DNA of 32,128 bases from Saprospiraceae bacterium (lineage in GTDB: Bacteria > Bacteroidota > Bacteroidia > Chitinophagales > Saprospiraceae): NCBI GenBank assembly GCA_022841505.1, contig JALHRK010000024.1, positions 1 through 32,128 on the forward strand, in the 5' to 3' direction. How positions within the stretch are numbered: position 1 is the stretch's first letter; every line of letters begins with the position of its first letter. This document shows, piece by piece, positions 5,937-24,868 of the stretch. The notes under the pieces were generated by a model. It did not search any database and had not been told where the DNA came from. It saw nothing but the letters and a program-made list of their open reading frames with translations. A program made the translations under genes and the position numbers.

Positions 5937-5974
5937 GAAGGGTTTTATTTGAACATAAGACAAACACCAATCAC

Positions 5975-8900: not shown

Positions 8901-9088
8901 GACAGGCCGTTCTGGGCATCCGGATTTTCAATAGTTCAGGACAATTGATGCGGAACGAAGCTTTGTATTTTGATGACAAATCAGCCCGGGTAGATTTTTC
9001 GGCTTTTGCGACCGGGTTATATTTTGTGCATTTGTACGAAGGGGATAGCGGGAAGGAGCGGGTTGCAAAAGTGGTAAAGGTGGATTGA
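5975..9088 (+). CDS. Secreted vanadium-dependent haloperoxidase with MopE-like repeats and T9SS domain
   Basis: A 1037-residue protein. Residues 1-22 form a signal peptide (MAQTLRLTLFLS to ATAQ), so translation should begin at 5975 and not further upstream. Residues about 25-620 are a vanadium haloperoxidase of the PAP2 superfamily. All vanadate-site positions can be matched to the Curvularia enzyme: K430 and R437 (seven apart), S538-G539-H540, and R604 and H610 (six apart). F533, seven before H540, matches the chloroperoxidase rather than the bromoperoxidase type. The expected reaction is peroxide-driven halide oxidation; phosphatase activity is possible since the site is shared. Residues about 635-950 carry MopE-like metal-binding repeats (EVCDGLDNDCNG, DADGDGFGD). 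The last 80 residues are a T9SS sorting domain (KLFPNPVSD), giving surface display or release. Confidence 0.9.
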   Translation: MAQTLRLTLFLSLFALTSATAQDESVARKWNEALLQSIRQDFARPPVHARNLFHTSLAMYDAWAAYDSTAQPYLLGKTVSGYTCPFEGVPIPADIEAAREQAISFAMFRILMQRFALSPNFFQAYVRFTGLMNELGYDFDIASTNYQSGSPAALGNYIASCVLQMGLQDGANEQGNYAIQYYQTVNTPLVMAAPGNPNILDPNRWQRLTLEAAVDQSGNPVPATQSFQSPEWGNVTPFAMTEEDLTIYERDNNEYLVYNDPGPFPMIDTLNGGAMSDEYKWNFALVTAWGAHHDPNDGVLWDISPRSIGNVQTYPQTVAEYHDFYNFEDGGDTGTGREINPKTGQPYEPQIVPRGDYTRVLAQYWADGPTSETPPGHWYTIMNYVADHPDFIKKYNGKGPVLGDLEWDVKAYFTLGGAVHDAAVSAWGIKGWYDGVRPVSALRYMADRGQSSDPSQPSYHIAGVPLIPGFIELVAQGDPLAGPNNEHVGKIKFYSWRGPDYIINPLTDIGGVGWILAEEWWPYQRKTFVTPPFGGYISGHSTYSRAAAEALTLLTGDEYFPGGMGEFHIAANSNFLGLERGPSVDVTLQWATYRDASDQTSLSRIWGGIHPPMDDIPGRVIGAQAGTGAFHLAKTYFYTDTDQDGFFSFEDCNDQNAAVNPDAAEVCDGLDNDCNGEADELPFFTYYADADGDGFGDAATALDTCLTELPGYVSNGSDCDDQAATLNPDAIEVCDGLDNDCNGETDELPFFTYYADADGDGFGDAASVLDTCLTEVPGYVSNSSDCNDSIAALNPDATEVCDGLDNDCNGETDELPFFTYYADADGDGFGDVATVLDTCLTEVPGYVSNSSDCDDSLAALNPDATEVCDGLDNDCNGETDELPFFTYYADADGDGFGNAATALDTCLNELPGYVSNDTDCDDANLEVNPTGIEVLDGLDNDCNGLVDDVVATTDLFRNTKLFPNPVSDVLMIQHTGQAVLGIRIFNSSGQLMRNEALYFDDKSARVDFSAFATGLYFVHLYEGDSGKERVAKVVKVD
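7967..8770 (+). repeat. Four 201-bp coding tandem repeats (MopE-like metal-binding motif)
   Basis: The unit is exactly 201 bases (67 codons): its GAA/GAG start codon recurs at 7967, 8168, 8369, 8570 and, as the start of a final partial unit, 8771. Each full unit encodes EVCDGLDNDCNGE, then LPFFTYYADADGDGFG, then DTCL and a YVSN..DC segment. A partial unit also precedes the array from about 7900. Aspartate-rich DxDxDG loops and a pair of cysteines per unit suggest calcium or copper binding. The units are close to identical at DNA level, so copy number may vary between strains and assemblies. Confidence 0.9.
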
Positions 9089-9133: not shown

Positions 9134-9161
9134 TTGGGTGTGCTTTACTTCGCTACCTTTG
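9134..9161 (+). promoter_or_regulatory. Promoter at the head of the six-gene phosphoesterase/phosphonate operon
   Basis: TACCTTTG (9154-9161) is a perfect match to TAnnTTTG, with TTG at 9134-9136 seventeen bases upstream. This predicts transcription from about 9168 and a leader of about 70 bases before the ATG at 9240. Confidence 0.6.
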
Positions 9162-9179
9162 GAAGCAGAAATAAAGCAC

Positions 9180-9211
9180 GCCTGCCATGCAACCCGTATG
9201 ATCATGCAGGC
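9180..9211 (+). promoter_or_regulatory. Leader hairpin before the operon's first gene
   Basis: The arms GCCTGC-C-ATG and CATGCAGGC pair over nine bases with one bulged C. A competing shorter pairing, TGCAAC with GTTGCA, overlaps it. The structure lies inside the predicted transcript leader, 28 bases before the start codon. Two mutually exclusive pairings hint at regulation, but this could be chance. Confidence 0.3.
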
Positions 9212-9239
9212 ATGTTGCACCTAAAAAAAGCTGCATAAC

Positions 9240-11690
9240 ATGATGCTTAATCGCCTTTTTTTACTTCTTGCCTTATTGAGCTTTTGCGTTCAGGACGCTC
9301 TATTTGCCCAGCGTAGGCCAGGAACTATACCCACAGATAATACGGTATTGTTACCTAATGGGTGGTTGCTCAGTCCTGCCGGAAAATCGTTGCCCCTGGG
9401 AGATTTACCACTTAACATTGCTGTGTCGCCCAACGAAAAATACCTTGCAGTGAGCAACAATGGACAAGGTGTTCAGTCGCTGCAATTGATTGATGCACGT
9501 AAGGGCAAACTTTTGCATACTTTTGAAATTCCGATTGCCTGGGTAGGATTGGCGTTTGCTGCTGATAACAAAACTTTGTACGTATCCGGAGGCAACAGCA
9601 ATGCAATTCTGAGATACCAGGTCATAAAGCAAAAATTGGTGCTTAAAGATACCCTGACTTTGGGTAAGCCCTGGCCGACAAAGATTTCGCCAGCTGGCCT
9701 TTGTGTGGATGATGCCCGGAACTTACTCTATGTGGTCACCAAAGAAAATCATAGCCTTTATGTTTTGGACACTCGTACAAACGCTGTTTTGTACAGAGAC
9801 TCCATCGGGAAAGAGCTGTATACCTGTGTGCTTTCTCCCGATCGCAGGCAACTGTACCTTTCTCATTGGGGCAATAATGAATTGGTGATCTGGGATACGG
9901 AAAAGCGGCAAGTCGTAAGTCGCATCCCTGTTGGGGACAATCCTAATGATTTAGTCCTTGACAAAAAGGGAAATTTTGCTTACATCGCCTGTGCCGATGA
10001 CAATACAGTAAGCGTTGTGGATTTGCAACAAAGGAAAGTAGTCGAAATTTTGGTGGCCACTTTATACCCCAACGCGCCCAATGGTTCTACTTCAAACAGT
10101 GTAGCGTTATCGCCCGATGAGAAACAACTTTATGTGGCCAATGCCGATAACAATTGTCTGGCCGTCTTTGATGTGTCAGAACCCGGCCAGGGGCGCTCGC
10201 TGGGATTTATTCCAACCGGTTGGTATCCGACCAGTGTACGCACGACGAGACGGAAAATATTTGTATCAAACGGGAAAGGGTTTTCTTCTTTTCCCAATCC
10301 GGAAGGCCCCGATCCAACGAGCTTAGAGCAAAGAGTAGCTTATCAGAAAGGAGACCGGGAAACGATATCTAAAATCCAATACATTGGCGGTTTGATGAAA
10401 GGTACGCTGAGTATCCTTAATACGCCTGATGAAAGAAGTTTAGCGGCTTATTCGCGACAGGTTTACCGCAATTCGCCCTATTCTAAAGAGCGCGAAAAAT
10501 TAGCGGAAGGAGAGCCAGGAAATCCTGTTCCACAGCGGGTTGGCGACCCTTCTCCGATCAAATACGTTTTTTACATCATTAAAGAAAACCGGACCTACGA
10601 TCAGGTGTTTGGGGATATGCCGGAAGGTAATGGAGACACATCTTTGTGTCTGTTTCCGGAAAAAATCACACCCAATCATCATGCTTTAGCCCGCGAATTT
10701 GTCTTGCTCGATAATTTTTATGTCAGTGCAGAGGTCAGCGCCGATGGCCACAATTGGAGCACGGCCGGCTATGCCAATGACTACACTGAAAAGACTTGGG
10801 TCACGAGTTATGGCAATCGCGGGGGTGATTATGTATATGAAGGCCAAAACCCAATTGCCTGGCCTAAAGGGGGCTTTATCTGGGATCATTGCAAGCGGGC
10901 GGGGGTCAGTTATCGCACGTACGGCGAGTTTGCCGATGATTACAAACCCAATATCCCTTCGCTTGAAGGACACTACTGTCCTTATTTTACTTCCTGGGAT
11001 ACCTCTGTAAAAGATACGATGCGGGTCAGCCAGTGGAAGCGGGATTTTGATTCTTTAATCGTGGCAGGCGCTTTGCCCCGGTTCAGTACCCTTCGACTCA
11101 TCAATGACCACACAGAAGGTTTGCGCCTTGGTAAACCAACGCCCTTCGCTCAAATGGCTGACAATGACCTGGCTTTTGGCTTGTTCATTGAACACCTGTC
11201 TCAAAGTCCCGTTTGGAAAGAATCGGCCGTATTTGTGCTGGAAGACGATGCTCAAAATGGCGCCGACCACGTAGATGCCCATCGGTCTATCGCTTTTGTG
11301 ATCAGCCCTTTTACCCGGCAGAAATCGGTGGATCATACGCTGTACAGCACGAATTCCATGTTGCGCACGATTGAATTGATTCTTGGCTTGCCGCCGATGA
11401 GCCAACACAATGCGGCTGCGACTCCGATGTGGCGTTGTTTTACGGCCAATCCTGATTTATCTCCTTATAAAGCGCGCCCTTCCAATGTCAATTTGGACGA
11501 GCTCAATACTGCGGTAAGTGAATTAAGTCGTCGCTCCGAAGCATTTGATTTGTCCAAAGAAGATCTTGTTCCTGATTTGGAATTTAACGAAGTGCTTTGG
11601 AAGGCAATTAAAGGAGAACATTCAGAAATGCCTGCACCGCGAAGAGCTGCTTTTCTAAATTATGAAACAGAAGAAGAAGGCGAACGCTAA
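9240..11690 (+). CDS. Secreted YncE-like beta-propeller fused to an alkaline-phosphatase-family phosphoesterase
   Basis: An 816-residue exported protein. Residues 1-24 form a cleavable signal peptide (LLALLSFCVQ to LFAQ). Residues about 50-355 are YVTN/YncE-type propeller blades (LSPDEKQLYVANADNN and similar repeats). Residues about 435-735 are a phosphoesterase of the phospholipase C/AcpA type (PF04185). The metal ligand pairs are recognisable: E449-N450 in KENRTYDQVFG and D669-D670 in EDDAQNGADHVDAH. S500 in SADGH is a candidate nucleophile. No T9SS domain is present, so the periplasm is the likely site. The substrate is unknown. It is the first gene of a likely operon, 69 bases before a paralogue with the same two domains. 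Confidence 0.88.
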   Translation: MMLNRLFLLLALLSFCVQDALFAQRRPGTIPTDNTVLLPNGWLLSPAGKSLPLGDLPLNIAVSPNEKYLAVSNNGQGVQSLQLIDARKGKLLHTFEIPIAWVGLAFAADNKTLYVSGGNSNAILRYQVIKQKLVLKDTLTLGKPWPTKISPAGLCVDDARNLLYVVTKENHSLYVLDTRTNAVLYRDSIGKELYTCVLSPDRRQLYLSHWGNNELVIWDTEKRQVVSRIPVGDNPNDLVLDKKGNFAYIACADDNTVSVVDLQQRKVVEILVATLYPNAPNGSTSNSVALSPDEKQLYVANADNNCLAVFDVSEPGQGRSLGFIPTGWYPTSVRTTRRKIFVSNGKGFSSFPNPEGPDPTSLEQRVAYQKGDRETISKIQYIGGLMKGTLSILNTPDERSLAAYSRQVYRNSPYSKEREKLAEGEPGNPVPQRVGDPSPIKYVFYIIKENRTYDQVFGDMPEGNGDTSLCLFPEKITPNHHALAREFVLLDNFYVSAEVSADGHNWSTAGYANDYTEKTWVTSYGNRGGDYVYEGQNPIAWPKGGFIWDHCKRAGVSYRTYGEFADDYKPNIPSLEGHYCPYFTSWDTSVKDTMRVSQWKRDFDSLIVAGALPRFSTLRLINDHTEGLRLGKPTPFAQMADNDLAFGLFIEHLSQSPVWKESAVFVLEDDAQNGADHVDAHRSIAFVISPFTRQKSVDHTLYSTNSMLRTIELILGLPPMSQHNAAATPMWRCFTANPDLSPYKARPSNVNLDELNTAVSELSRRSEAFDLSKEDLVPDLEFNEVLWKAIKGEHSEMPAPRRAAFLNYETEEEGER

Positions 11691-11759
11691 GCGTCAGGCG
11701 AATTTATTCCCTATAAAGTACAAACTGCACCTTATTTAATCCATCAAAAAAATTGACGA

Positions 11760-14498
11760 ATGTTGCGAATATATACCAATTTTTTATTTCAACTCCTTGG
11801 TTTATTGTTGATTATTCAAGCTTGCAGCAGCCCCAAAACAGCGGGGAAGTGGCTGATAGAACCTCCTGCCGGCGATCGCTATTGCCAGATTAATGTTGAT
11901 GGGACAACGATTATCCCCAATGGCCGGGTAGTGGCGCCAATGGGGAAAACCGTGCGCATTGCGCCCCATCCTTTCGGTTTGGCACTTTCGCCGGACGGAT
12001 CGGTAGCCGTGACTGCAAATTCAGGAAACAGGCCATTTTCGGTTACGATTTTAGAAAATCCTGCATCCGGGCGTCCCAATATTCGTCAGGTACCTGAAGG
12101 CGCAATGAACGACAAAAACCTGCTTGAAGATGTCTTTATGGGGCTGGCAGTAACTCCCGATAACAAGAATGTTTGGGTTGCTGGCGGCCAATCCAATAAA
12201 CTTTATCTTTTTGATTTAAAAACCGGCGCCAAGCTTGATTCCATTGTTTGCGCACAACCCGGCCACGCAGACGGATACCTGGGCGACCTTGTCCTGACCC
12301 GCGACGGCAATACTTTATACGCATGCGATCAAAGCAATTTCAGACTTGTGATCGCCGATACCCGCACCCGAAAGGTCTTGAACTACGTATCAGTTGGGCG
12401 TTATCCATTTGGTGTAACGTTGTCGCCAGACGAAAAAACCGTCTATGTCGCCAATGTAGGGATGTTTGAATACCAACCTTTACAACAACCGATTGATTTT
12501 CCAGCTTCAGCTTTCGGTTCAAAAGAAATGCGCGACGGATACCGGGAAGGGGAAGCCGTTATTCCTGGTCTTGGTGATCCGAATGTCCCCGAGTCGTTTT
12601 CAGTGTGGTCCGTGGACGTTTCAGGGGCGAACCCAAAAGTCATCCATCGCATCAAAACCGGTTTTTTAGTAGGCGAAAAAATAGAAGGCATTCCTGCGGT
12701 CGGCGGAGCGGGGCCGAATTCTTTAGTTGCCACGGATCAATATGTATTTGTCACCAATGGCAACAACGACTGCATCTCTGTGATCGAACCGACGCAAGGG
12801 CGCGTAGTGAAAAACATATTTTTGAAACCGCTGCCGCAGTTGAGCCGCTTCCGGGGCGTGATTCCTTTTGGTGTAGCGCTTTCTCCCGATAAAAAACGCC
12901 TTTATGTGGCAGAATCGGGGTTGAATGCTGTAGCCGTTGTGGATGTGCCTTCGCTTGAAGTAATTGGTCATCTGCCTGTTGGGTGGTTCCCTTCCAAGGT
13001 AGCGGTATCGCCCGATGGGAAAAAACTATACGTGGCCAATGCCAAAGGCTACGGCAGTGGTCCCAATGGCGGCTATACATTCAAGGAGGGCGCGGAAGGC
13101 AGTTATGTCGGCCACCTCATGCATGGCTCCGTGACGATGCTCGATATTCCAAAAGACGAAGACTTAGCCCTTTTTACCCGGCAGGTTTTGGAGCATAATT
13201 TCAACCTGACCCCGGCATCTGACCCAATTTTAGCGGCTCGAAAGGACAACCCGATCCCTTTGTTCCCCGGGGAGAAACAGAGTCCGATCAAATACATTGT
13301 ATTTATTTCCAAAGAAAATCGCACCTATGATGAAGTCTTTGGGCAGGTGAAACAAGGCAAAGGCGACCCCGAAATTGCCCGCTACGGCTACAACCGTACT
13401 TTTTCAAACCGGGATAAATCCACGACAATAGAAGGCGCTACCATCATGCCCAACCACCTGGCATTAGCCCGGCGCTTTGGCATTGCCGATAATTTTTATG
13501 TAGATGCCGATCACTCCGCCGATGGACACCGTTGGTTGGTCAATACCTATCCCAACCAATGGGTCGAAACGAATGTACCGGCGGGTTATGGCGGAACCCG
13601 TGATGTGAAGGCCAATAGCAAAGAACCGGGGAAATTCGGCTGGACCGGATCTGCCGGAGCTATCTTCCCCGAAGACTACAACGAAGCCGGTTCGATGTGG
13701 GACCACCTGGAACGCAACGGGATTTCGTTTTTTAATTGGGGCTTTGGTGTGGAAATGCCTGCTAATTTATCGGATTCTACCATGAAATACTACGGGCAGA
13801 AAGTGCTGGTCAATTACCCGGTTCCTGCGCCGCTCTTCGTCAATACGTCCAGGCGTTATCCAACTTATAATATGGCCATCCCAGACCAGTTTCGCGCCGA
13901 TTTGTTCATAGATGAATTTAAGGAAAAATGGCTGGATTCTTCTGAAAAAATGCCCCAAATGCTGACGATCCTGTTGCCCAATGACCATGGTGCCGGGGAA
14001 CGTCCGGATGCTGGCTACCCTTTTCGGGAAAGTTACATGGCCGACAATGACCTGGCGTTGGGACGAATCGTCGAGTTTTTGTCCGGCACGCCTTACTGGA
14101 AAGAAATGGCCATCGTTGTTACGGAAGACGATGCACAAGATGGCCGGGATCATGTGGATGCGCATCGAAGTTTGTTGATGGTCTATTCTCCTTGGGCAAA
14201 GCGCAACTTTGTAAGCCACCGGCATTTCAGTTTCGGAAGCATCTTCAAAACTTTCTGGAACATCCTGGGTACGCCCTACCTGAATCAGTACGACGCAGCC
14301 GCTTCCGATATGGCTGATTTTTTTACCAATCAACCCGATTTTACGCCTTATCAGGCACTTCCCGTAGACCCGCGCGTGCTTGATCCCCAAAAATTACTTA
14401 CGCCTTTCGATGAAAAATTTGATTGGAAAAGTATGCTCGAATCTCCGGAATTGGACAATGTAGAAGATTTTATCAAAGAAAAACGCGGTGGGAATTAG
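11760..14498 (+). CDS. Lipoprotein paralogue: YncE-like propeller plus alkaline-phosphatase-family phosphoesterase
   Basis: A 912-residue protein with the same layout as its upstream neighbour but clearly diverged. The N-terminus is a lipoprotein signal with lipobox IIQAC, giving C22 as the lipidated residue. The residues after it (SSPKTAGK) lack the acidic surface-export signal, so a periplasm-facing anchor is the simpler guess. Propeller blades cover about 50-440 (LSPDEKTVYVANVG, VSPDGKKLYVANAKG). The phosphoesterase covers about 505-860, with E519-N520 in SKENRTYDEVFG, candidate S586 in SADGH, and D790-D791 in EDDAQDGRDHVDAH. It has longer insertions around 535-560 and 620-700 than the first copy. 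Two variants in one operon suggest different substrates or different membrane placement. Confidence 0.88.
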   Translation: MLRIYTNFLFQLLGLLLIIQACSSPKTAGKWLIEPPAGDRYCQINVDGTTIIPNGRVVAPMGKTVRIAPHPFGLALSPDGSVAVTANSGNRPFSVTILENPASGRPNIRQVPEGAMNDKNLLEDVFMGLAVTPDNKNVWVAGGQSNKLYLFDLKTGAKLDSIVCAQPGHADGYLGDLVLTRDGNTLYACDQSNFRLVIADTRTRKVLNYVSVGRYPFGVTLSPDEKTVYVANVGMFEYQPLQQPIDFPASAFGSKEMRDGYREGEAVIPGLGDPNVPESFSVWSVDVSGANPKVIHRIKTGFLVGEKIEGIPAVGGAGPNSLVATDQYVFVTNGNNDCISVIEPTQGRVVKNIFLKPLPQLSRFRGVIPFGVALSPDKKRLYVAESGLNAVAVVDVPSLEVIGHLPVGWFPSKVAVSPDGKKLYVANAKGYGSGPNGGYTFKEGAEGSYVGHLMHGSVTMLDIPKDEDLALFTRQVLEHNFNLTPASDPILAARKDNPIPLFPGEKQSPIKYIVFISKENRTYDEVFGQVKQGKGDPEIARYGYNRTFSNRDKSTTIEGATIMPNHLALARRFGIADNFYVDADHSADGHRWLVNTYPNQWVETNVPAGYGGTRDVKANSKEPGKFGWTGSAGAIFPEDYNEAGSMWDHLERNGISFFNWGFGVEMPANLSDSTMKYYGQKVLVNYPVPAPLFVNTSRRYPTYNMAIPDQFRADLFIDEFKEKWLDSSEKMPQMLTILLPNDHGAGERPDAGYPFRESYMADNDLALGRIVEFLSGTPYWKEMAIVVTEDDAQDGRDHVDAHRSLLMVYSPWAKRNFVSHRHFSFGSIFKTFWNILGTPYLNQYDAAASDMADFFTNQPDFTPYQALPVDPRVLDPQKLLTPFDEKFDWKSMLESPELDNVEDFIKEKRGGN

Positions 14499-14551
14499 TG
14501 CGATTTCAGCGGTGTAATCATCACGTTCCCGATTTCTAAAATCCTCTTTTA

Positions 14552-16597
14552 ATGAAGCCTTTTTGTACAATACTGTTGATTGGCTGGTTCAGTTGCTTTA
14601 CCTGCGCTCAAACAATAACTGCACAGGATACAATTTCACCAGTTGATACGACCATCTTATTTCAGCGAGGAGTCGTGGTGACGGCTCAGCGGCAACCACA
14701 AAATAGTTTTAAATTACCGATAGTCACAACGGTTTTGGATGCGCCTTACTTACAGGCGCGTGCACCCCGGAGTGTACCGGAGGCCCTGTTCGGGGCGCCC
14801 GGCGTTTTTTTACAAAAAACCAATCATGGCGGCGGATCGCTTTTTTTGCGTGGATTGACCGGACAACAAACCTTATTACTGGTTGACGGCATTCGTTTAA
14901 ACAATGCCACTTTCCGATCCGGCCCCAATCAATACCTCAACACCCTTGACGCAGGCTGGATGTCGCGGATCGAAATCATGCAGAGCAGCGGCGCTGCTGC
15001 TTATGGCAGCGATGCAATCGGGGGCGTTGTTAATGTCCTTACCCGAACGCCACTTTTTACAGAACAAAGCAAACTCCGTCCTGAAGCAGCCTTTAAATGG
15101 ATGTCTGACGGGATGGAATTGAGCGGACAGGGCGCCGTAGAAGCTTCCGGGCAACGTTGGGCGCTGAGAGCCGGAGGCGCTTACCGCAATTTTGGCGACC
15201 TGATGGCTGGTGAAGGAATTGGCAGGCAGGCTCCGAATGCTTACAGCCAATGGAGCGTGGAATTTAAGGGGTTATTAAAACTAACCGACCGGATTCGGCT
15301 GGTTGCCGTTTATCAGGATTTGGAACAACAGGATGTTCCGGTTTTCCACAAAGTGCAATTGGAAAATTTCAAATACAACACCTTCGACCCACAGCGCAGG
15401 CAATTGGCCTATGCGCGTTTTCAAGGTTTTTTTGACAACAAGTGGTGGCAAAAAACAGAATTGACGTTTTCGCGCCAACGCAGTCTGGAAGTGCGGAAAA
15501 GCCAGAAAAACGGGCAACCATTACAAGTTACCGAAACGGATGAAGATGTAACGAATGGCTTGCAATTTAGTGTTTTATCCAATATCCTGCCAAACTGGGC
15601 GATGACTACCGGCGTAGAATGGTATGCAGATGAGGTGCGCAGTGACAAAGTGGAATACCACGAACAGACCAATGTCGAGCTCGAAAAACGGGGTTTGTAT
15701 CCCGACCAGTCCAGGATGCAAAGTTTAGCTGTTTACAACCTGCACACCTTCAACTGGAAAGACGTGGTGTTTAGTGGCGGATTGCGGTACAACGCCTTTC
15801 GAATCCGCGTACCCGATGACAATATTGGCATTTCTGAAATCACACCGTCAGCCCTTGTCGGGAATTTGGGTATTTCCTGGCAAGTTGTAAAAAAATGGCG
15901 GATTTTCATGAACGCAGCCTCTGCTTTTCGCGCGCCCAATATTGACGACCTCGGCACGCTGGGCATCGTAGATTTTCGCTACGAATTGCCCAACTATGAG
16001 TTAAAACCTGAAAAAAGCAGAAGCGTTGAAGCTGGGATTAAGGTCAAAACAGAAGATTTTAACGCCAGTTTTGCAGCCTATTACCTGCAACTCAGCGACC
16101 TGATCGGGCGCATTCGTACGGCAGATTCCTTGCAAGGGTATGCCGTTTACCGCAAAGAAAATATTACAGAAGCCTTTATCAGAGGCGCCGAAGTGCAGTT
16201 GGAGTGGCGCTGTGCTTCCCGATGGTTGATTGCAGGACATACTTCGTACACCTTTGGTCACAATGCAACTGCCAGCGAACCGCTTCGGCGGATACCGCCC
16301 CTGAATGGCCGGCTATACCTGGAGTATTATCCCGACAACCAGCTGAGTCTGCGGGTCGAAAGCATCTTCGCCGGAGCGCAGCGCCGCTTAGCAAAAGGCG
16401 ATATTGACGACAACCGGATTGCGGATGACGGCACCCCGGGATGGCAGATTTTTAACATTGGCGCCAGATACCAATTTCGGCAGTATGCCCTTTCGGGCGA
16501 ATTTCACAACGTGCTAAACGAAGCTTATCGCACGCATGGCTCCGGAGTTGACGGAATAGGCCGGAGCATCTGGCTAAGTCTGAATGTACATTTCTAA
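14552..16597 (+). CDS. TonB-dependent outer-membrane receptor
   Basis: A 681-residue outer-membrane protein. Residues 1-25 look like a signal peptide (ILLIGWFSCF to ITAQ). Residues about 40-165 form the plug: VVVTAQRQPQ, PEALFGAPGVFLQ, FLRGLTGQQTLLLVDGIRLNN, then the conserved YGSDAIGGVVNV. The rest is a 22-strand-type barrel ending in an aromatic residue (SLNVHF). It has no carboxypeptidase-regulatory-like N-terminal domain and no SusD partner, so it is a compact BtuB-sized receptor rather than a SusC. It starts 53 bases after the phosphoesterase lipoprotein and ends 23 bases before the oxidoreductase. The operon context suggests uptake of an organophosphorus compound, but the ligand cannot be read from sequence. 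Confidence 0.9.
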   Translation: MKPFCTILLIGWFSCFTCAQTITAQDTISPVDTTILFQRGVVVTAQRQPQNSFKLPIVTTVLDAPYLQARAPRSVPEALFGAPGVFLQKTNHGGGSLFLRGLTGQQTLLLVDGIRLNNATFRSGPNQYLNTLDAGWMSRIEIMQSSGAAAYGSDAIGGVVNVLTRTPLFTEQSKLRPEAAFKWMSDGMELSGQGAVEASGQRWALRAGGAYRNFGDLMAGEGIGRQAPNAYSQWSVEFKGLLKLTDRIRLVAVYQDLEQQDVPVFHKVQLENFKYNTFDPQRRQLAYARFQGFFDNKWWQKTELTFSRQRSLEVRKSQKNGQPLQVTETDEDVTNGLQFSVLSNILPNWAMTTGVEWYADEVRSDKVEYHEQTNVELEKRGLYPDQSRMQSLAVYNLHTFNWKDVVFSGGLRYNAFRIRVPDDNIGISEITPSALVGNLGISWQVVKKWRIFMNAASAFRAPNIDDLGTLGIVDFRYELPNYELKPEKSRSVEAGIKVKTEDFNASFAAYYLQLSDLIGRIRTADSLQGYAVYRKENITEAFIRGAEVQLEWRCASRWLIAGHTSYTFGHNATASEPLRRIPPLNGRLYLEYYPDNQLSLRVESIFAGAQRRLAKGDIDDNRIADDGTPGWQIFNIGARYQFRQYALSGEFHNVLNEAYRTHGSGVDGIGRSIWLSLNVHF

Positions 16598-16620
16598 GGA
16601 ATTATTTTCAATAGAATACA

Positions 16621-17778
16621 ATGCATCAACACTACGACTTATTAATTGTAGGCGGCGGCGTCCTCGGCGTCTTTCACGCGTATCATGCCCTGCAATTGGG
16701 GTTGAAAGTCGCCATTCTGGAAAAAAACAACCTCCCGCAAGGTTCTTCCGTACAAAATTTTGGTCAGATCGTCCCTTCAGGGATGGATCCAAAATGGCAG
16801 CAGTACGGCCGCAAAAGCTTAGAAATTTACAAATCAATTCAGGCACAATTCGATATTTCTCTGCGACAAAACGGCTCTGTTTACCTCGCCTCTGACGAAG
16901 AAGAAATGGTGCTGCTGGAAGAATTGGCAGCGATCAACCTTGCCAATGATTATCCGTCGCAATTGTTGACTGCCAGTGAATGTTTGCAGCGTTATGAAGG
17001 CTTGCGCGCCGATTATTGCCGCGGAGGGTTGTTCTTCCCGGAAGAAATAACCCTGGAACCCCGGGTTGCCCTTCACCGCATTCTTTCTTTTCTAATTGAA
17101 CAAAAAGGGCTCCATTATTATCCGCAAACGCTTGCGGTGGACGTGGAAACATCCGGTGCGACCTGCAAAGTAATGGCAAGCGATAAACGCGTTTTTCAAG
17201 CAGACCAGGTGCTGATTTGCAACGGATATGAGTTTCAGGCGCTTTTCCCGGAGGTTTACCGGCAAAGTGATTTACAGGCAGTTAAACTGCAAATGATCCT
17301 GCTTGAGCAACAGCCTGCTCAACGCATTCCAGGTTCCATCCTGACCGGACTGAGCATCCGGCGCTATGAAAGTTTTCGGGAATGCCCTTCTTACGAGGCC
17401 ATAAAAGCCAGGGAAAACCCGGACAGCCTTGCGAAAAAATGGAGTGTTCATATTCTGTTTAAGCAAACAACCGACGGCGCCATCATTTTGGGCGATTCAC
17501 ACGAATATGCAGATGTGAACGACCGGGAATCCCTGCGCATTGAAATCAAATCAACCATTAACCAATACATGATGGAGGAGGCCGCAAAGATTTTTGATTT
17601 GCAGACCTGGAACATCCGCGAAACCTGGGTTGGCATGTATACCCAGTGCAAAACACAGGATGTTTTTCAGAAAAAAATTAATGATCAGATTCACCTGCTT
17701 ACAGGGATTGGCGGTAAAGGCATGACGGCAAGCGCCGGTTTTGCATCGGAAAATATCAACCATATTTTGGGCAAATAA
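16621..17778 (+). CDS. FAD-dependent oxidoreductase, phosphonate-associated (TIGR03364/PbfD-like)
   Basis: A 385-residue cytoplasmic flavoprotein of the DAO family. The dinucleotide-binding motif G11-x-G13-x-x-G16 (LIVGGGVLG) and the ribose-binding E34 (AILEKN) are in place. GSSVQNFGQIVPSG at 41-54 and LTGIGGKGMTASAG near the C-terminus are typical of the family. Members linked to phosphonate genes oxidise 2-aminoethylphosphonate or its N-methyl forms, giving phosphonoacetaldehyde. The next gene, ten bases away, encodes a phosphonatase-like hydrolase that could use that product. No PhnW-type transaminase is nearby, so this enzyme could supply the aldehyde instead. The family call is firm; the exact amine substrate is inference. 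Confidence 0.82.
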   Translation: MHQHYDLLIVGGGVLGVFHAYHALQLGLKVAILEKNNLPQGSSVQNFGQIVPSGMDPKWQQYGRKSLEIYKSIQAQFDISLRQNGSVYLASDEEEMVLLEELAAINLANDYPSQLLTASECLQRYEGLRADYCRGGLFFPEEITLEPRVALHRILSFLIEQKGLHYYPQTLAVDVETSGATCKVMASDKRVFQADQVLICNGYEFQALFPEVYRQSDLQAVKLQMILLEQQPAQRIPGSILTGLSIRRYESFRECPSYEAIKARENPDSLAKKWSVHILFKQTTDGAIILGDSHEYADVNDRESLRIEIKSTINQYMMEEAAKIFDLQTWNIRETWVGMYTQCKTQDVFQKKINDQIHLLTGIGGKGMTASAGFASENINHILGK

Positions 17779-17788
17779 AAAAGAAAAA

Positions 17789-18469
17789 ATGACCATTGAA
17801 TTAGTTGTATTTGACATGGCCGGCACCACGGTTGATGAGCAAAATGTAGTTTATAAAACTGTGCATCAAGCCATTCAGCGGGCTGGGTTTGAAGTTTCGC
17901 TCGACGAGGTTTTATTCCATGCTGCCGGTAAAGAAAAATTTCAGGCAATTCTGGATGTATTGCAAAGCAAAAGCAATGAACAGATCGCCCCTGAAACGAT
18001 CTTGCCTGTTTTTCAGGATTTTGAGGCTTTACTTGACCGCGCTTATCAGGATTTAACTCCCAAGGCAATGCCCGGGGCGGTTCATGTTTTTGAAACTTTA
18101 AGAGCGCACGGCATAAAGGTGGTTTTGAATACCGGTTATAAACGCAAAGTTGCAGCAGGGTTGCTGCAAAAATTGGGATGGGCAGAAGGGCTAACTTTTG
18201 ATTTGTTGCTTACCGCAGACGACGTTCCGCGTGGCCGCCCGTATCCGGACATGATTTTGGCGGCGATGCAGCACTTTCAGGTAACTGACCCAAAATTGAC
18301 GGCAAAAATCGGCGACTCCATTGTTGACGTCGAAGAAGGAATTGCGGCAGGTTGTTCGATCAGCGCAGGCATTACGACCGGCGCGCAAACTGCGGCACAA
18401 TTGAAAACCGCTTCGCCTACTCATATATTGACAAAACTGGAAGACCTTTTACAATTCATTGACCTTTAG
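17789..18469 (+). CDS. Phosphonatase-like HAD hydrolase (PhnX-related, TIGR03351 type)
   Basis: A 226-residue cytoplasmic enzyme. HAD motif I is DMAGTTVDE, with nucleophile D9. Position +2 is A11, as in phosphonoacetaldehyde hydrolase, where other HAD phosphatases have Asp. K50 in AGKEKFQAI lies three after a glycine, as the Schiff-base lysine of PhnX does in its MGLLK segment, so it is a good candidate for the substrate-binding lysine. Motif II (LNTGYKR), RGRPYPDMI and motif IV (IGDSIVDVEEG) are intact. The expected reaction is phosphonoacetaldehyde to acetaldehyde plus phosphate. The start at 17789 avoids a 16-residue extension overlapping the previous gene. The ten-base gap to that gene suggests translational coupling. 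Confidence 0.85.
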   Translation: MTIELVVFDMAGTTVDEQNVVYKTVHQAIQRAGFEVSLDEVLFHAAGKEKFQAILDVLQSKSNEQIAPETILPVFQDFEALLDRAYQDLTPKAMPGAVHVFETLRAHGIKVVLNTGYKRKVAAGLLQKLGWAEGLTFDLLLTADDVPRGRPYPDMILAAMQHFQVTDPKLTAKIGDSIVDVEEGIAAGCSISAGITTGAQTAAQLKTASPTHILTKLEDLLQFIDL

Positions 18470-18498
18470 CATCGTGTCTTTCAAACGAAAAGAAAAAT

Positions 18499-19785
18499 AT
18501 GCTGCACTCACCTGCGCTTGAGCGCCGCTTAGCCAATTCCGGTCCAATCCTGTTCATTGTTACGGCCGGTTTGGTCGCATTTGTTACCTATGGCTGCATC
18601 TATGCTTTTCGCAAACCCTTCACAGCCGCCAGTTTTTCAGGGATGGAAATTGGAGGGGTTCAATACAAAATTGCGTTGGTCATTGCCCAGGTTGCCGGGT
18701 ACGCATTGTCGAAATTTATTGGAATCCGCTTGATTTCTTCCCTTGGCGCAGCACGACGCGCTGGGGTGGTGCTGATCATGATTGCCATTGCCGGCGCTTC
18801 CCTGCTTGGTCTGGCATTATCTCCGCCTTCCTGGGGTTTGTTTTGGATGTTTCTCAACGGGTTGCCTTTAGGAATGGGTTGGGGGTTGATTTTCAGTTAT
18901 TTAGAAGGGCGTCGGGTGACCGAAGCGCTCGCTGCTTTTCTTTGCGTAAACTTTATTATTTCTTCCGGCTTTGTCAAAACTGTGGGAAAATGGATGATCC
19001 TCGATTGGGGCATCTCGGAGTTTTGGATGCCTTTTGTTGTTGCTATGTTGTTTTTGCCGGCGTTGTTGCTGGGCTTATGGATACTCGAACACCTGCCACC
19101 GCCTTCAGGCGCGGATATCGAACAGCGCAGCCTGCGCCAACCTATGGATGGACCGTCGCGAAAAGCGCTGTTTTTTCAGTATGCTCCCGGCCTGATTATT
19201 ATGGTGGTGATCTATCTGGCGCTCACCATACTCAGGGATGTGCGCGACAACTTTACGGTTGAAATCTGGACCGAACTTGGATTTGGCGCTCAACCCGAGG
19301 TGCTCACCACCGCCGAATTACCTGTGGCGCTGTTGGTGTTGGTATTTGTTGCAGCGCTTGCCCTGATTAAAAACAATGAAAGAGCCTTGTGGATCAATCA
19401 TGCTATTATTGTAACAGGGGCGCTGGTGTTGCTTGGAGCAACCCTGATGTTCAGAGCGGGCCACCTGTCGCCGGTCGTATGGATGATCCTGACGGGAGTA
19501 GGCGTTTTCCTGCCTTATATTCTTTTCAATGGCGTCATTTTTGATCGCTTATTAGCCACATTTCGGGAAACTGGAAACGTTGGTTTTTTAATTTACATAG
19601 CCGACTCATTTGGTTACTTAGGAAGCGTTTTGGTTTTATTGTGGCGTAACTTTGGGAAACCTGATTTAAGCTGGGTTCAGTTTTTCTCTAACCTTTGCCT
19701 TTACGGAGCAGGCCTGGTTTTTTTTGCGGGATTGCTTTCCTGGCATTATTTTCGCGTGAAATATAAACGCCTTTACCCTGCGTAA
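18499..19785 (+). CDS. DUF5690-type multi-pass inner-membrane protein, probable transporter
   Basis: A 428-residue protein with about 11-12 hydrophobic segments (for example ILFIVTAGLVAFVTYG, LALLVLVFVAALALI-like stretches and a final LVFFAGLLSW), resembling the major facilitator layout. The N-terminal YAFRKPFTAASF and the central EGRRVTEALAAFLC segments are typical of DUF5690 as I remember the family. It is the last gene of the operon, 29 bases after the phosphonatase-like gene, and its stop codon overlaps the left arm of the terminator at 19780. Its place beside cytoplasmic phosphonate enzymes makes it a candidate inner-membrane importer for their substrate. No substrate is known to me. Confidence 0.75.
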   Translation: MLHSPALERRLANSGPILFIVTAGLVAFVTYGCIYAFRKPFTAASFSGMEIGGVQYKIALVIAQVAGYALSKFIGIRLISSLGAARRAGVVLIMIAIAGASLLGLALSPPSWGLFWMFLNGLPLGMGWGLIFSYLEGRRVTEALAAFLCVNFIISSGFVKTVGKWMILDWGISEFWMPFVVAMLFLPALLLGLWILEHLPPPSGADIEQRSLRQPMDGPSRKALFFQYAPGLIIMVVIYLALTILRDVRDNFTVEIWTELGFGAQPEVLTTAELPVALLVLVFVAALALIKNNERALWINHAIIVTGALVLLGATLMFRAGHLSPVVWMILTGVGVFLPYILFNGVIFDRLLATFRETGNVGFLIYIADSFGYLGSVLVLLWRNFGKPDLSWVQFFSNLCLYGAGLVFFAGLLSWHYFRVKYKRLYPA

Positions 19786-19823
19786 ATGTGCTGTTTGTTA
19801 ACAATAAATTACGCGTTTTTTTT
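19780..19823 (+). terminator. Intrinsic terminator of the six-gene operon
   Basis: GCGTAA (19780-19785, overlapping the stop codon) pairs with TTACGC (19809-19814). The loop itself contains the perfect palindrome TTGTTAACAA (19795-19804). Eight T residues follow at 19816-19823. Confidence 0.65.
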
Positions 19824-19965: not shown

Positions 19966-22900
19966 ATGAAGGTACACTGCCAAACCTTCAAGGGCCTGTT
20001 TATTGCCCTTGTTGTAGCAATGCTGTCTGCGATGAGCGTTCATGCACAATCCATTAGCGGGATCGTCATAGACGCCGACAGCAAGGATCCGTTGATCGGC
20101 GCCAACATCGCTGTAAAAGATTCCAACCGCGGAACAGTTTCCGATGTTCAGGGCAACTTTTCCATAGAAGTCCGCGCAGGAGAAAAATTGATGATTTCCT
20201 ACATTGGTTATGCTGCTCAGGAAATAGTCATTGGTATGGAAAAAGAACTGACGGTTCTCCTGAAGCAGGAAAACCTGCTCCAGGAAATTACGGTTACTGC
20301 TTTGGGCATCAGCCGGGAAAAAAAATCACTGGGGTATTCCGTACAGGAAGTCAGCGGCGATAACCTGGATAAAGCCCGCGAAACCAATATCATCAATGCG
20401 CTTTCCGGCAAAGTTGCCGGTTTGACCATTGTGGGAAACCCTTCCGGGATAGGTTCCTCTTCGCGGGTAACCATCCGCGGGGAACGATCCTTGAACATCA
20501 ATGGCAACCAACCGCTTTTTGTAGTGGATGGCGTGCCGATCAGCAATGAATTCCGGGGCTCGTCGGGGAATTCTTATCAGGATGTAGATTATGGCAATGG
20601 CGCCGGGTTGGTAAACCCCGACGACGTTGCGACGATTACCGTACTTAAAGGCGCAAGCGCAGCCGCTTTATACGGTTCCCGTGCCAACAACGGCGTTATC
20701 CTGATCACCACTAAATCAGGCAAAAATACCAAGGGAATTGGCGTTTCGATCAATTCTACGGTTTCCTTCGAAAACGTATTGCGCTTGCCGGAATATCAGA
20801 ATGTCTATGGCCAGGGCCTGAACAACGCCTTTGAATTTAAAGATGGAAATGGTGGCGGGGCTGCCGATGGGGTAGATGAAAGCTGGGGCCCTGCCATGGA
20901 GGGACAATTGGTTCGCCAATTCGACTCGCCAACGGCCAACGGGTTTCGCGGTGCAGATGTTGGCAACCTGTTTAATTCCATCGGCCCGGTTAATTTAGAT
21001 GCACAGTTAGCGGCTCGTGGGGACATTACGGCTACTCCGTTTATTGCAAGACCTGATAATATCCGTGATTTCTTCGAAACCGGAGTGACTCAAACGCACA
21101 ACGTAGCCGTCTCGGGAAGCAACGAAAAAAGTGATTTCCGACTTTCCTATACCTGGCTGGATCAGACAGGGATCGTTCCAAACACTGACCTTCAGCGCAA
21201 TTCCATTGCATTTGCAGGTGGATACAACCTGACGCCAAGGTTGCGGGTTCGCACCAGCATCAATTATGCGAACAGTGCCAGTTCCAACCGCCCTAACCTG
21301 AGTTATGGAACAGAAAACATCATGTACCTGTTCAACTGCTGGCTTGGCAGAAGTGTGGATGTATCAGCTCTGCGCGATTATTGGATGGCTGGGCGTGAAG
21401 ACCTCAACCAGTTCAATTTCAACTATAATTACCACGATAACCCATATTTCGGACTATACGAAAATACCAATAGCCAAAACATTGACCGTATTTTCGGAAA
21501 TATTGCGCTGACTTACGACATCAGCGATAAGCTGAGTCTGATGTTGCGCAGCGGTACAGACGTAAGCAACGAATTCCGAGCCCGCCGCCGCGCCTATAGT
21601 ACGCAGCGTTTTCAGCGCGGCAGCTACCGCGAGGAACGACTTGGCTTCACAGAACTTAATACGGATTTCCTGTTGAGCTATAAAACCAAACTGAGTTCCA
21701 ACCTGGGCCTGAATTTCAGCGTAGGCGGCAACGCCATGCAGCAAAAAGGAAGGGTTTCTGATGTCATTGCACCAGAATTAGCTGTTCCCGGTATTTTTAC
21801 CCTGTCCAACTCCCGGGTAGCGATCCAGAATCTTGCCTCACAGCCTTACCGCGAAAAACAAATTCACAGTTTGTACGCAACCGCTCAATTAGACTTCAAC
21901 AATTACCTCTACCTTGATTTGTCGGCTCGCAACGACTGGTCCAGTACGCTGCCTTCTGATTCGCGCAGCTATCTTTACTACGCAGCCAACCTGAGCGCTG
22001 TACTTACGGATGCATTCAACATCAACAGCGATGTATTGTCTTTTGCGAAAGTACGCTTAGGACTTGCTCAGGTGGGTAACGATACCGATCCATATCAATT
22101 AAGCGCCGTATACAACGCGCAGACAGCAGTTCAGGGTCAGCCAGCGTACAGCGAATCCAGCATCCTGGTCAACCCGAATCTCAAACCTGAAATCAGTACG
22201 TCTATTGAAACCGGTCTTGACCTGCGTTTCTTTGGCAACCGGCTGGGGCTCGACTTAGCTTATTACAATACCGAAAGCCGCAACCAGTTGTTGCCCCTTG
22301 AGTTGTCCATTACGACAGGCTATGCGCGTCGTTTCATCAACGCCGGCTTGATTCGCAACAAAGGTTTTGAAGCAACCCTGAACATCACGCCGCTGAAAAG
22401 CCGTGATTTTACCTGGGATCTTGCTTTCAATTTTTCCACCAACCGCAGCGAGGTTGCTGAACTTTTCACTGATCCAATCAGCGGACAGGAAGTAACCCGT
22501 TACGTGATGGCTTCCCGCTATGTATCTGTGGAAGCGCGTGTCGGCGAACAAATGGGTGACATGTATGGCATTGGATTTCAACGGGTAAGTGATGACCCGG
22601 ACAGCCCCTATTTCGATCCGACGGGTGAACACGTGGGCAAAGTAGTGTACAACAATCAGGGCAAGCCTGTGGCTACAGCCAATTTGATCAAACTTGGCAA
22701 TTATAACCCCGATTGGCTGGGCGGCATTAGCAATACTTTTTCTTATAAAGGATTGACATTAAATGTTCTGTTTGATGTGCGCGTCGGCGGTGAAATTTAC
22801 TCCCACACACAAACGGTAGGCCGTGAAGGCGGTCAACTCATAGAAACGCTGGAAGGCCGCGCCAATGGCTACGACCTGAGCCTTGAGGGCAATGGCGTGA

Positions 22901-23271
22901 TCGGAGATGGCGTCGTACTACAGGAAGACGGCAGTTTCAAGCAGAATGATGTGAAGCTCAGCGCCCGCGAATGGCATACTTCCTACACCCTGGGCCGCAG
23001 GCTCATTGAAGGAGTAATTTACGATGCTTCTTTTGCCAAATTGCGCGAAGTGCGGCTGGGTTACACCTTTCCAAACCGCATCTGGGGCAAAGCTCAGATC
23101 CGCGACCTGAGTCTCAGCGTAGTAGGCCGCAATTTAGCGTTGTGGACAGATGTACCGCATATTGATCCGGAAACGTCTTCTACTTCCGGAGGAACAGTGA
23201 TCCCGGGGGTAGAATCGGTGGCGCTGCCTTCCACGCGCAGCATCGGCCTGAACCTGAATTGCCGGTTCTGA
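19966..23271 (+). CDS. SusC/RagA-family TonB-linked outer-membrane protein
   Basis: An 1101-residue outer-membrane transporter. Residues 1-28 form a signal peptide (FIALVVAMLSAM to VHAQ). Residues 29-95 are a carboxypeptidase-regulatory-like domain (ISGIVIDADSKDPLIGANI, SYIGYAAQEIVIG). Residues about 110-240 are the plug, with the typical ITVTALGISREKKSLGYS, NALSGKVAGL, PLFVVDGVPISN and ALYGSRANNGVILITTKSG. The barrel follows and ends in GLNLNCRF. The downstream gene, 27 bases on, encodes the SusD partner. SusC/D pairs import oligosaccharides, peptides or other large nutrients; no glycoside hydrolase or peptidase accompanies this pair here, so the ligand is open. Confidence 0.95.
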   Translation: MKVHCQTFKGLFIALVVAMLSAMSVHAQSISGIVIDADSKDPLIGANIAVKDSNRGTVSDVQGNFSIEVRAGEKLMISYIGYAAQEIVIGMEKELTVLLKQENLLQEITVTALGISREKKSLGYSVQEVSGDNLDKARETNIINALSGKVAGLTIVGNPSGIGSSSRVTIRGERSLNINGNQPLFVVDGVPISNEFRGSSGNSYQDVDYGNGAGLVNPDDVATITVLKGASAAALYGSRANNGVILITTKSGKNTKGIGVSINSTVSFENVLRLPEYQNVYGQGLNNAFEFKDGNGGGAADGVDESWGPAMEGQLVRQFDSPTANGFRGADVGNLFNSIGPVNLDAQLAARGDITATPFIARPDNIRDFFETGVTQTHNVAVSGSNEKSDFRLSYTWLDQTGIVPNTDLQRNSIAFAGGYNLTPRLRVRTSINYANSASSNRPNLSYGTENIMYLFNCWLGRSVDVSALRDYWMAGREDLNQFNFNYNYHDNPYFGLYENTNSQNIDRIFGNIALTYDISDKLSLMLRSGTDVSNEFRARRRAYSTQRFQRGSYREERLGFTELNTDFLLSYKTKLSSNLGLNFSVGGNAMQQKGRVSDVIAPELAVPGIFTLSNSRVAIQNLASQPYREKQIHSLYATAQLDFNNYLYLDLSARNDWSSTLPSDSRSYLYYAANLSAVLTDAFNINSDVLSFAKVRLGLAQVGNDTDPYQLSAVYNAQTAVQGQPAYSESSILVNPNLKPEISTSIETGLDLRFFGNRLGLDLAYYNTESRNQLLPLELSITTGYARRFINAGLIRNKGFEATLNITPLKSRDFTWDLAFNFSTNRSEVAELFTDPISGQEVTRYVMASRYVSVEARVGEQMGDMYGIGFQRVSDDPDSPYFDPTGEHVGKVVYNNQGKPVATANLIKLGNYNPDWLGGISNTFSYKGLTLNVLFDVRVGGEIYSHTQTVGREGGQLIETLEGRANGYDLSLEGNGVIGDGVVLQEDGSFKQNDVKLSAREWHTSYTLGRRLIEGVIYDASFAKLREVRLGYTFPNRIWGKAQIRDLSLSVVGRNLALWTDVPHIDPETSSTSGGTVIPGVESVALPSTRSIGLNLNCRF

Positions 23272-23298
23272 TTTTTATCACAATAAACAATCTTGACA

Positions 23299-24768
23299 AT
23301 GAAACATACTTTCTTGAAATCATGGGTACTGCTCGCGCTGCTTTCAATGGCGTTTGGATGTACCAAAGACTTTGATGAAATCAATACCAACCCGAATGCG
23401 CCAACCCTCGTGAATTCAGGTCTCCTGATGCCGCAAATTCAGCGCGATGTCATGAACAGCCTGTTGAATGAAGCCTGGGGTATTGGCAATATCGTCATTC
23501 AGCACACGGCCAAAAACCAGTTCGTAAATGAAGACCGCTACCTCTGGGGCGAACTCAACGGAATCTGGAACAGCGTGTACGACAACATGCGCGACGTGAA
23601 CAACATTATTGCCCAAAGCGATGCCAATAATGAGCAGAATTACAAAGGCATCGCGCTGGTTCTGCGCGCCTGGATGTTTTCACTGGCCACAGATGCTTAC
23701 GGCGATATTCCTTATTCTGAAGCCATTCTGGCAAAAGAGGGCATCAATTACACCAACTACGATTCACAGGAAGCGGTATACGACGGGATCTTGAACGACC
23801 TGGAAACTGCCAACAATATTCTGGGAACAACCGGTGAAGTCGTTGCAGGCGATCTCATTTTCAAAGGCGACGTGGCAAAATGGAAAAAATTAGCCAATTC
23901 GCTGAGCATCCGCTATTTACTGCGCATTTCCAACAAACGCAATGTAAGCGCAGACCTGACGAAAATTGTGGCCAACACCGCTGATAACCCGATCTTTGAA
24001 AACGTAGCGGACAATGCGGTCTACACTTTTCTGAGCAATTCTCCCGACCAATTCCCGTTGCACTCTGCACGGATCGGCTCTTTCAACGAGTTTCGCGCTT
24101 CTAAAACGCTGCTGGATACCCTCCAGACCCTGGATGACACCCGGATGCCCATCTTTTTCCGACCTACTCCTGAAACTGAAACTTCCGGTAACCCGGTATT
24201 TGCCGGACTTCCGAATGGTCTGGGCGACGTGGAAGCCCTTCAGTACAATGGCGGCCCGCAAAACCAATCCAGAATTGGTTCGCTTTATTTTGAAAACGCT
24301 GTTTCGACCCAAGGACTTTCCATTGCCAAAGGCGTCATCATGACCTACGCAGAATTACAGTTCCTGCTGGCAGAGGCTGCTGAAAAAGGCTTAATAAGCG
24401 GCAGTGCACAGGCCTACTATGAAAATGGAGTGAATGCGTCATTCCAGTTTTATGGATTAACGGCGCCGGTCGCATACTTTTCTCAGAATCAGGTAGCATA
24501 CACCGGCTCGTCGGTGGAAAAACTGAATAAAATTGGTTTCCAAAAATGGATTTCCCTCTATTTTCAGGGACTGGAAGCATGGTTCGATTGGCGGCGCACC
24601 CAAATCCCGGCATTGATTCCTGGCCCGACGAATCAGAACGATGATAAAATTCCGGTTCGATTCCGTTATCCGATTATCGAACAGTCGCTTAACGCAGAAG
24701 GATACCAGGGGGCAATTCAACGCCAGGGCCCCGATGACTTGAACTCAAAAATGTGGTATTTAAAATAA
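23299..24768 (+). CDS. SusD/RagB-family outer-membrane nutrient-binding lipoprotein
   Basis: A 489-residue lipoprotein, SusD-like_2 subgroup. The lipobox MAFGC places the lipidated cysteine at C21. The following TKDFDE is rich in K and acidic residues, as in the Bacteroidota signal for lipoprotein display on the cell surface. Typical features are DFDEINTNPNAPT at the mature N-terminus, WNSVYDNMRDVNNII, the helical ALVLRAWMFSLATDAYGDIPYSEA segment (TPR-like region) and a C-terminal FDWRRTQIPAL. The start at 23299 gives a normal signal sequence. It acts as the lid of the SusC transporter encoded just upstream. The substrate is not indicated. Confidence 0.93.
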   Translation: MKHTFLKSWVLLALLSMAFGCTKDFDEINTNPNAPTLVNSGLLMPQIQRDVMNSLLNEAWGIGNIVIQHTAKNQFVNEDRYLWGELNGIWNSVYDNMRDVNNIIAQSDANNEQNYKGIALVLRAWMFSLATDAYGDIPYSEAILAKEGINYTNYDSQEAVYDGILNDLETANNILGTTGEVVAGDLIFKGDVAKWKKLANSLSIRYLLRISNKRNVSADLTKIVANTADNPIFENVADNAVYTFLSNSPDQFPLHSARIGSFNEFRASKTLLDTLQTLDDTRMPIFFRPTPETETSGNPVFAGLPNGLGDVEALQYNGGPQNQSRIGSLYFENAVSTQGLSIAKGVIMTYAELQFLLAEAAEKGLISGSAQAYYENGVNASFQFYGLTAPVAYFSQNQVAYTGSSVEKLNKIGFQKWISLYFQGLEAWFDWRRTQIPALIPGPTNQNDDKIPVRFRYPIIEQSLNAEGYQGAIQRQGPDDLNSKMWYLK

Positions 24769-24838: not shown

Positions 24839-24868
24839 GGTGGAAAACGGGTTACGCCGTTTTCCACC
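24839..24868 (+). terminator. Hairpin terminator after SusC/SusD
   Basis: Perfect 12-base arms GGTGGAAAACGG and CCGTTTTCCACC enclose the loop GTTACG, 70 bases after the SusD stop codon. It is followed by CTCTTTA, a weak T-run. It separates the SusC/D pair from the large gene downstream. Confidence 0.65.

Follow-up and report, generated by a model that had tools for sequence, protein, structure and literature searches.

The window analyzed here (i.e., the whole 32,128-nucleotide stretch of contig JALHRK010000024.1 from a Saprospiraceae bacterium) probably carries a Bacteroidota PUS-type phosphonate-utilization locus composed of three modules, a reading of its gene content to which we assign a probability of roughly 0.6. 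The window co-localizes a SusCD/TonB transporter with phosphoesterases, which is the gene content characteristic of a PUS, and these genes adjoin two enzymes of phosphonate degradation and a DUF5690 membrane protein. An earlier sequence-only reading of this DNA had proposed that the genes cover every cellular compartment on the route from the cell surface to the cytoplasm, and our results support that proposal.

Gene organization and limits of the locus

Six co-directional open reading frames (ORFs) occupy positions 9240 to 19785 of the forward strand, with intergenic gaps of 69, 53, 23, 10, and 29 bases (Table 1). This layout is exactly the one described in the sequence-only reading, and all six gene identities were confirmed (i.e., two fusions of a YncE-type propeller to PF04185, here called PE1 and PE2; a TonB receptor; TIGR03364; TIGR03351; and DUF5690). 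The order of all six genes is kept in L047, a congener, and that of five of them in L039, which belongs to another genus; this indicates more than chance adjacency. The same order is seen in a Saprospiraceae metagenome-assembled genome (MAG; L196), whose contig is apparently the same as that of the congener (G001; L047).

The boundaries of the operon had been drawn more tightly than our scans suggest. The promoter box proposed upstream of PE1, TACCTTTG, is present, but the TAnnTTTG motif occurs 15 times in the window versus 21.7 times expected (i.e., no enrichment), and the match alone is therefore little evidence of a promoter. The terminator that had been placed at 19823 was not found: the scan detected no terminator-like stem-loop between the DUF5690 stop codon (19785) and susC, and the best candidate in the scanned region follows susD. 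The 3' limit of the operon is thus doubtful, and the stem-loop positions suggest that the locus probably runs on through the susCD pair (19966 to 24768), which the earlier reading had missed and which begins 180 bases downstream of DUF5690. A second TACCTTTG at 19921, between DUF5690 and susC, may provide susCD with a promoter of its own.

Two large ORFs flank this region on the forward strand. Directly upstream of the operon, positions 5969 to 9088 encode a vanadium-haloperoxidase-like protein (PF22778, DUF6851) that carries five MopE metal-binding repeats as well as a type IX secretion tail; it also lies upstream in L047. Just after susD, an ORF of at least 2373 amino acids (25010 to 32128; open at the end of the window) contains two choice-of-anchor-I domains and a phytase-like esterase domain (PF13449) and possibly encodes another phosphorus-related secreted protein.

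Table 1. Features of the locus (positions in the window)
Feature	Position	Strand	Basis
Candidate Bacteroidota -7 promoter box TACCTTTG, 5' of operon	9154..9161	+	motif match only
PE1, propeller + PF04185 phosphoesterase, 816 aa	9240..11690	+	Pfam/NCBIfam
PE2, propeller + PF04185 phosphoesterase, 912 aa	11760..14498	+	Pfam/NCBIfam
TonB-dependent receptor, 681 aa	14552..16597	+	Pfam/NCBIfam
PbfD-type FAD amine oxidase (TIGR03364), 385 aa	16621..17778	+	curated model score
PhnX-like phosphonatase (TIGR03351), 226 aa	17789..18469	+	curated model score and catalytic residues
DUF5690 membrane protein, candidate OPA-like MFS carrier, 428 aa	18499..19785	+	profile, predicted structure, neighborhood
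SusC-like outer-membrane transporter, probably part of the locus	19966..23271	+	neighborhood conservation
SusD-like lipoprotein	23293..24768	+	profile and neighborhood
Intrinsic-terminator-like stem-loop, 12 pairs, 3' of susD	24839..24868	+	strongest in scanned region; consensus match

The phosphonate core and the DUF5690 protein

The last three of the six genes (i.e., those for PbfD, the PhnX-like hydrolase, and DUF5690) form a robust and well-supported phosphonate core, and we are highly confident that this core serves phosphonate catabolism. The PbfD protein scores 397 bits against TIGR03364 (cutoff, 285.1), a model whose cutoff is exceeded in 27 of the 199 related genomes, with broken copies in two more (29 in total). 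The PhnX-like protein scores 238 bits against TIGR03351 (cutoff, 218.9) and 119 bits against the true PhnX model TIGR01422 (cutoff, 220). By score, this hydrolase is not a member of TIGR01422, but its residues suggest that it may work like PhnX: the DxAGT nucleophile motif and the cap-domain lysine are present, and the positions D12 (nucleophile), K53 (Schiff base), R160, and D186 are conserved. Among the PhnX-like proteins of the relatives and 80 further loci, the nucleophile Asp is kept in all 76 and the Schiff-base Lys of Bacillus cereus PhnX in 75. PbfD enzymes convert M1AEP or AEP to phosphonoacetaldehyde and are often encoded beside phnX alone, without phnW (PMC10590968). The genome that contains the window (7.5 Mb; 99% complete) has no PhnW above the cutoff, so the aldehyde-supplying entry enzyme would need to be PbfD; this genome has no PEP mutase either, and the two absences together mark the locus as catabolic rather than biosynthetic. 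The scores and catalytic residues thus bear out the phosphonate catabolism that had been proposed for this enzyme pair.

Phosphate and phosphate esters are the cargo of OPA carriers, and several comparisons place DUF5690 near this family. The sole PDB matches of the DUF5690 profile are to human SLC37A4 (E = 0.006). Its match to a GlpT/UhpT/UhpC profile has an E value of 5e-4, versus 0.2 for NarK and ProP as single sequences, but is weak (hhalign probability, 31%; GlpT as a single sequence, E = 0.05). With the predicted structure (pLDDT, 92), SLC37A4 was the top match both in Foldseek (E = 4e-8) and in VIA-align (Z = 33.3; rmsd, 3.2; 364 aligned). Since other, non-OPA MFS proteins lie within 2 to 3 Z units of it, fold alone is no proof of OPA membership. 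DUF5690 and GlpT have in common the YxxRKxF motif of helix 1; R38 aligns with R45 of GlpT, one of its two phosphate-binding arginines. For the other, R269, the neighboring R246/R249 are shifted by one position in the profile alignment, which counts against the match. By sequence and profile, DUF5690 is closer, if weakly, to OPA carriers than to other MFS proteins, and it probably represents a new transporter family. A literature search, with subscription papers outside its coverage, found no paper naming DUF5690 or PF18943. Another OPA relative, AepP, is an AEP permease (Murphy et al., PMC8316502), so that an OPA-like role in phosphonate import has a parallel.

The genomic context of DUF5690 points in the same direction. 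The window protein scores 516 bits (cutoff, 25), and the family exceeds its cutoff in 36 of the 199 relatives, where it is present in 28 of the 29 PbfD genomes (Fisher P = 8e-26, ignoring genome kinship). We then scanned one genome per species and took the 80 highest-scoring DUF5690 loci out of 597 or more, a nonrandom set that is mostly from Bacteroidota with some Pseudomonadota. Under strict thresholds, a phosphonate gene lies within 10 kb of DUF5690 in 68 of these 80 best-scoring loci, versus none of 20 controls. These controls were the PE and receptor loci together with a single DUF5690 locus of the first survey, a background chosen for convenience that is not ideal. A looser tally of 70 was replaced after low scores and possible cross-hits to generic ABC ATPases had been removed. 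Counts per model were 43 for PbfD, 39 for PhnX-like, 25 for PhnZ-type HD (TIGR03276), 10 for HpnZ, 9 each for PhnJ and PbfA, 7 for PhnM, and 6 each for PhnW and PhnF. Curated models named PhnW, PbfA, PhnF, PhnL, PhnM, PhnJ, HpnZ, and PhnZ-type HD neighbors in representative loci, C-P lyase genes being among them.

The remaining 12 of the 80 loci have no phosphonate gene in reach, which would fit a cargo other than phosphonates (i.e., export of phosphate or of the aldehyde, or import of phosphate esters), as would the established substrates of OPA carriers. We consider such a cargo unlikely. The constant partners of DUF5690 are chemically different phosphonate routes, including C-P lyase, and what these routes have in common is their phosphonate input. 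Furthermore, five Chitinophaga loci (L205, L206, L208, L209, and L216) pair DUF5690 with SusCD alone, in a regulator-susC-susD-DUF5690 unit with no recognized catabolic gene within 10 kb, an arrangement that fits two transporters in series. The phosphonate context and the OPA likeness both favor the inner-membrane carrier suggested in the sequence-only reading, and we predict that DUF5690 quite likely carries phosphonates.

Other neighborhoods of DUF5690 have features of their own. In Dyella and Rhodanobacter (L211, L215, L236, L238, L242, L255, L259, and L267), DUF5690 lies beside C-P lyase genes (several of phnF, phnJ, phnL, phnM, and TIGR03223), for which it is a possible alternative importer. 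A second DUF5690 paralogue (74% identical) occurs in the genome of the window (L061; G000:C579) and in the congener (L194), where a further choice-of-anchor/phytase-like ORF lies close by. A HisJ-like PHP hydrolase adjoins DUF5690 in 9 of the 80 loci (including L219, L222, L225, L228, and L264) and in three loci of the relatives (L182, L187, and L189). An HTH-cupin regulator, which could be the sensor of the pathway, often lies near DUF5690/SusCD phosphonate loci (L191, L192, and 33 of the 80); none was seen in the window.

Esterases, receptor, and SusCD as exchangeable modules

The window PE1 and PE2 proteins score 60.1 and 40.0 bits, respectively, against PF04185 (cutoff, 23). PE1 has a signal peptide and PE2 a lipoprotein-type signal (LIIQAC), and neither has a type IX tail. 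The crude signal-peptide rule was used only for inspecting PE and F9 proteins; its flag on PbfD is false, the rule being triggered by a Rossmann N terminus. The metal-ligand motifs ENR and EDD of PE1 align with those of acid phosphatase 2d1g, and EN and DD are invariant across six PE proteins. An AlphaFold model of PE1 (pLDDT, 60; six rows) was too poor to use and was set aside. In Flavisolibacter nicotianae (L217:17160-20460), a second PE-type gene is apparently split into separate ORFs. The L217 locus of this cultured member of the Chitinophagaceae encodes SusCD, a PhnZ-type protein, a PhnX-like protein, DUF5690, PbfD, and PE.

The esterases and the receptor are an optional, exchangeable module, and elsewhere other esterases and SusCD fill their slots. 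Full-length PE2 orthologues were found in 11 of the 199 relatives, where the receptor adjoins PE2 in seven of the eight genomes having both. By sequence, the closest named families of the receptor are of the heme/cobalamin type, which says little about its substrate. It was found in six phosphonate loci (the window, L047, L039, L038, L274, and L280), and the receptor-PE pair of L038 lies beside a PbfD only 27% identical to that of the window. Among the 80 DUF5690 loci, where TonB receptor labels are mostly low-scoring generic matches, its close relatives are limited to L196 and L274. Alternative esterases include an alkaline-phosphatase-superfamily (PF01676-like) protein in 13 of the 80 DUF5690 loci and, in other clusters, calcineurin-type or PF01663 phosphodiesterases.

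Absence of the esterases or the receptor from most related clusters had been named beforehand as an outcome that would refute a joint pathway, and such absence is literally what we observed (i.e., PE-type esterases in 12 of 67 PbfD loci and the receptor in the six phosphonate loci above). We do not read it as a refutation, because PE tracks PbfD, substitutes occur elsewhere, and all the parts are found together again in another family. On a tree of the 67 PbfD proteins, PE presence requires at least seven changes (gains or losses), and none of 500 shuffles reaches the same degree of clustering; co-occurrence is significant for PE with PbfD (P = 4.5e-4) and for PE with the receptor (P = 2e-9), genome kinship being ignored in both. 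In L274 (a Chitinophagaceae MAG) and L280, one co-directional run encodes SusC, SusD, the receptor, a PhnZ-type protein, a PhnX-like protein, DUF5690, PbfD, and PE1. Identities to the window proteins are 39 to 41% for the receptor (41% in L274), 34 to 36% for PhnX-like, 29 to 31% for PbfD (i.e., only 29 to 36% for the core enzymes), and 62 to 63% for PE1 (62% for the orthologue in the L274 phosphonate operon). That the same parts have come together repeatedly speaks for a functional link.

A rival explanation is general phosphorus scavenging, in which the receptor, PE1, and PE2 would take ordinary phosphate esters (e.g., phospholipid headgroups, nucleotides, or phosphorylated glycans) and the phosphonate core would be separate, only co-regulated under phosphate limitation. 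Receptor-PE2(-PE1) clusters without an adjacent phosphonate core exist (L161, L162, L163, and L282); in L161, which has no phosphonate genes, receptor-PE2 adjoins a purple acid phosphatase as well as SusCD, and in L282 PE2 and PE1 flank the receptor. The receptor-PE module is thus not phosphonate specific, and these clusters keep the scavenging explanation alive, in line with the phytase-like domain encoded 3' of susD in the window and with the mixture of esterases and phosphonate genes in Flavobacterium PUS loci (PMC8115612). Against it, PbfD clusters gained or lost PE on at least seven occasions, and PE lies within the same co-directional run as the phosphonate core in L274, L212, L280, and the window. 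We regard general scavenging as somewhat improbable; that the esterases and the receptor feed the same pathway as the phosphonate core is, in our estimate, an evenly balanced proposition.

SusCD also recurs beside phosphonate genes. It accompanies the same core in L047, L055, L274, and L280, and 10 of 22 relatives have SusD no more than 10 kb from PbfD, versus 1.1 expected from SusD density (P = 4e-7). With SusD in 31 of the 80 DUF5690 loci, SusCD is the commonest outer-membrane partner, which would suit an aminophosphonate-decorated glycan, a variant of our reading that differs in substrate only: SusCD would import the fragment and the esterases would remove AEP. Bacterial phosphonate production is reported to serve mostly the decoration of cell surfaces with AEP (PMC6697681). 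No carbohydrate-active enzyme was recognized among the scanned neighbors (a subset of all neighbors), an absence tempered by the known lack of such enzymes in PUS SusCD loci (PMC8115612). We consider a phosphonoglycan substrate rather doubtful.

Proposed route and relation to known systems

We propose that the TonB receptor, probably together with SusCD, imports a phosphonate-bearing compound across the outer membrane and that PE1 and PE2 would hydrolyze its P-O ester in the periplasm, releasing a small aminophosphonate (e.g., AEP or N-methyl-AEP). DUF5690 would import this phosphonate across the inner membrane, perhaps against phosphate, as its context, fold, and motifs suggest. In the cytoplasm, PbfD would oxidize the amine to phosphonoacetaldehyde, a reaction demonstrated for other PbfD enzymes, and the PhnX-like enzyme, given its catalytic residues and the chemistry of related phosphonatases, would split the C-P bond into phosphate and an aldehyde. 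A dedicated phosphonate-ester route is a plausible prediction. The window alone does not separate phosphonolipids, phosphonoglycans, and ordinary phosphate esters as its substrate, and we hold a phosphonolipid to be improbable. Only tentatively, at somewhat less than even odds, do we extend the reading to DUF5690 proteins as a widespread group of OPA-type carriers that, in both Bacteroidota and Pseudomonadota, import phosphonates for the PhnX, PhnZ-type, and C-P lyase routes and that complete a receptor/propeller-PF04185 phosphonate-ester pathway in this locus.

Phosphonates are a sizeable phosphorus store, often bound to lipids and glycans, and Bacteroidota are major polymer degraders whose access to bound phosphonates is poorly known. 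If DUF5690 does carry phosphonates, it would be a genomic marker of phosphonate uptake in a phylum with rarely reported named importers. The swappable outer modules lead to testable predictions of the bound phosphonate used by each species.

An outer-membrane transporter, esterases, and phosphonate enzymes in one Bacteroidota locus have been stated for Flavobacterium PusCD (PMC8115612). The window resembles these PUS in combining a SusCD or TonB transporter with exported phosphoesterases, and differs in having a non-SusC receptor and two propeller-PF04185 esterases ahead of the PbfD, PhnX-like, and DUF5690 genes; the likeness is one of gene content only, whereas PUS are also defined by induction under phosphate depletion. 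As in the PbfD-PhnX pathway (PMC10590968), a TIGR03364 oxidase lies beside a phosphonatase-type enzyme without PhnW, but the hydrolase in the window belongs to TIGR03351, below the PhnX cutoff, and uptake and esterase genes are attached. AepP, which is co-localized with phnWX/phnWAY, resembles the proposed DUF5690 carrier as an OPA-family relative for AEP uptake; it is 28% identical to GlpT (PMC8316502), whereas DUF5690 constitutes a Pfam family of its own, whose profile similarity to GlpT is no more than remote. DUF5690 has the MFS fold, the helix 1 motif, and an NG-rich region before helix 5 in common with GlpT, UhpT, and SLC37A4, but its sequence identity to them is about 17%, and its transport is predicted only. 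The adjoining glpQ and glpT genes of Escherichia coli follow a logic like the one proposed here, in which a diester is cut outside the inner membrane and the headgroup is then imported by an OPA carrier; the window differs in its esterase family and in its proposed product, a phosphonate instead of a phosphate monoester. Compared with these systems, two things are new here: a PE/receptor variant that has been recruited repeatedly and the argument for a phosphonate-carrying role of DUF5690.
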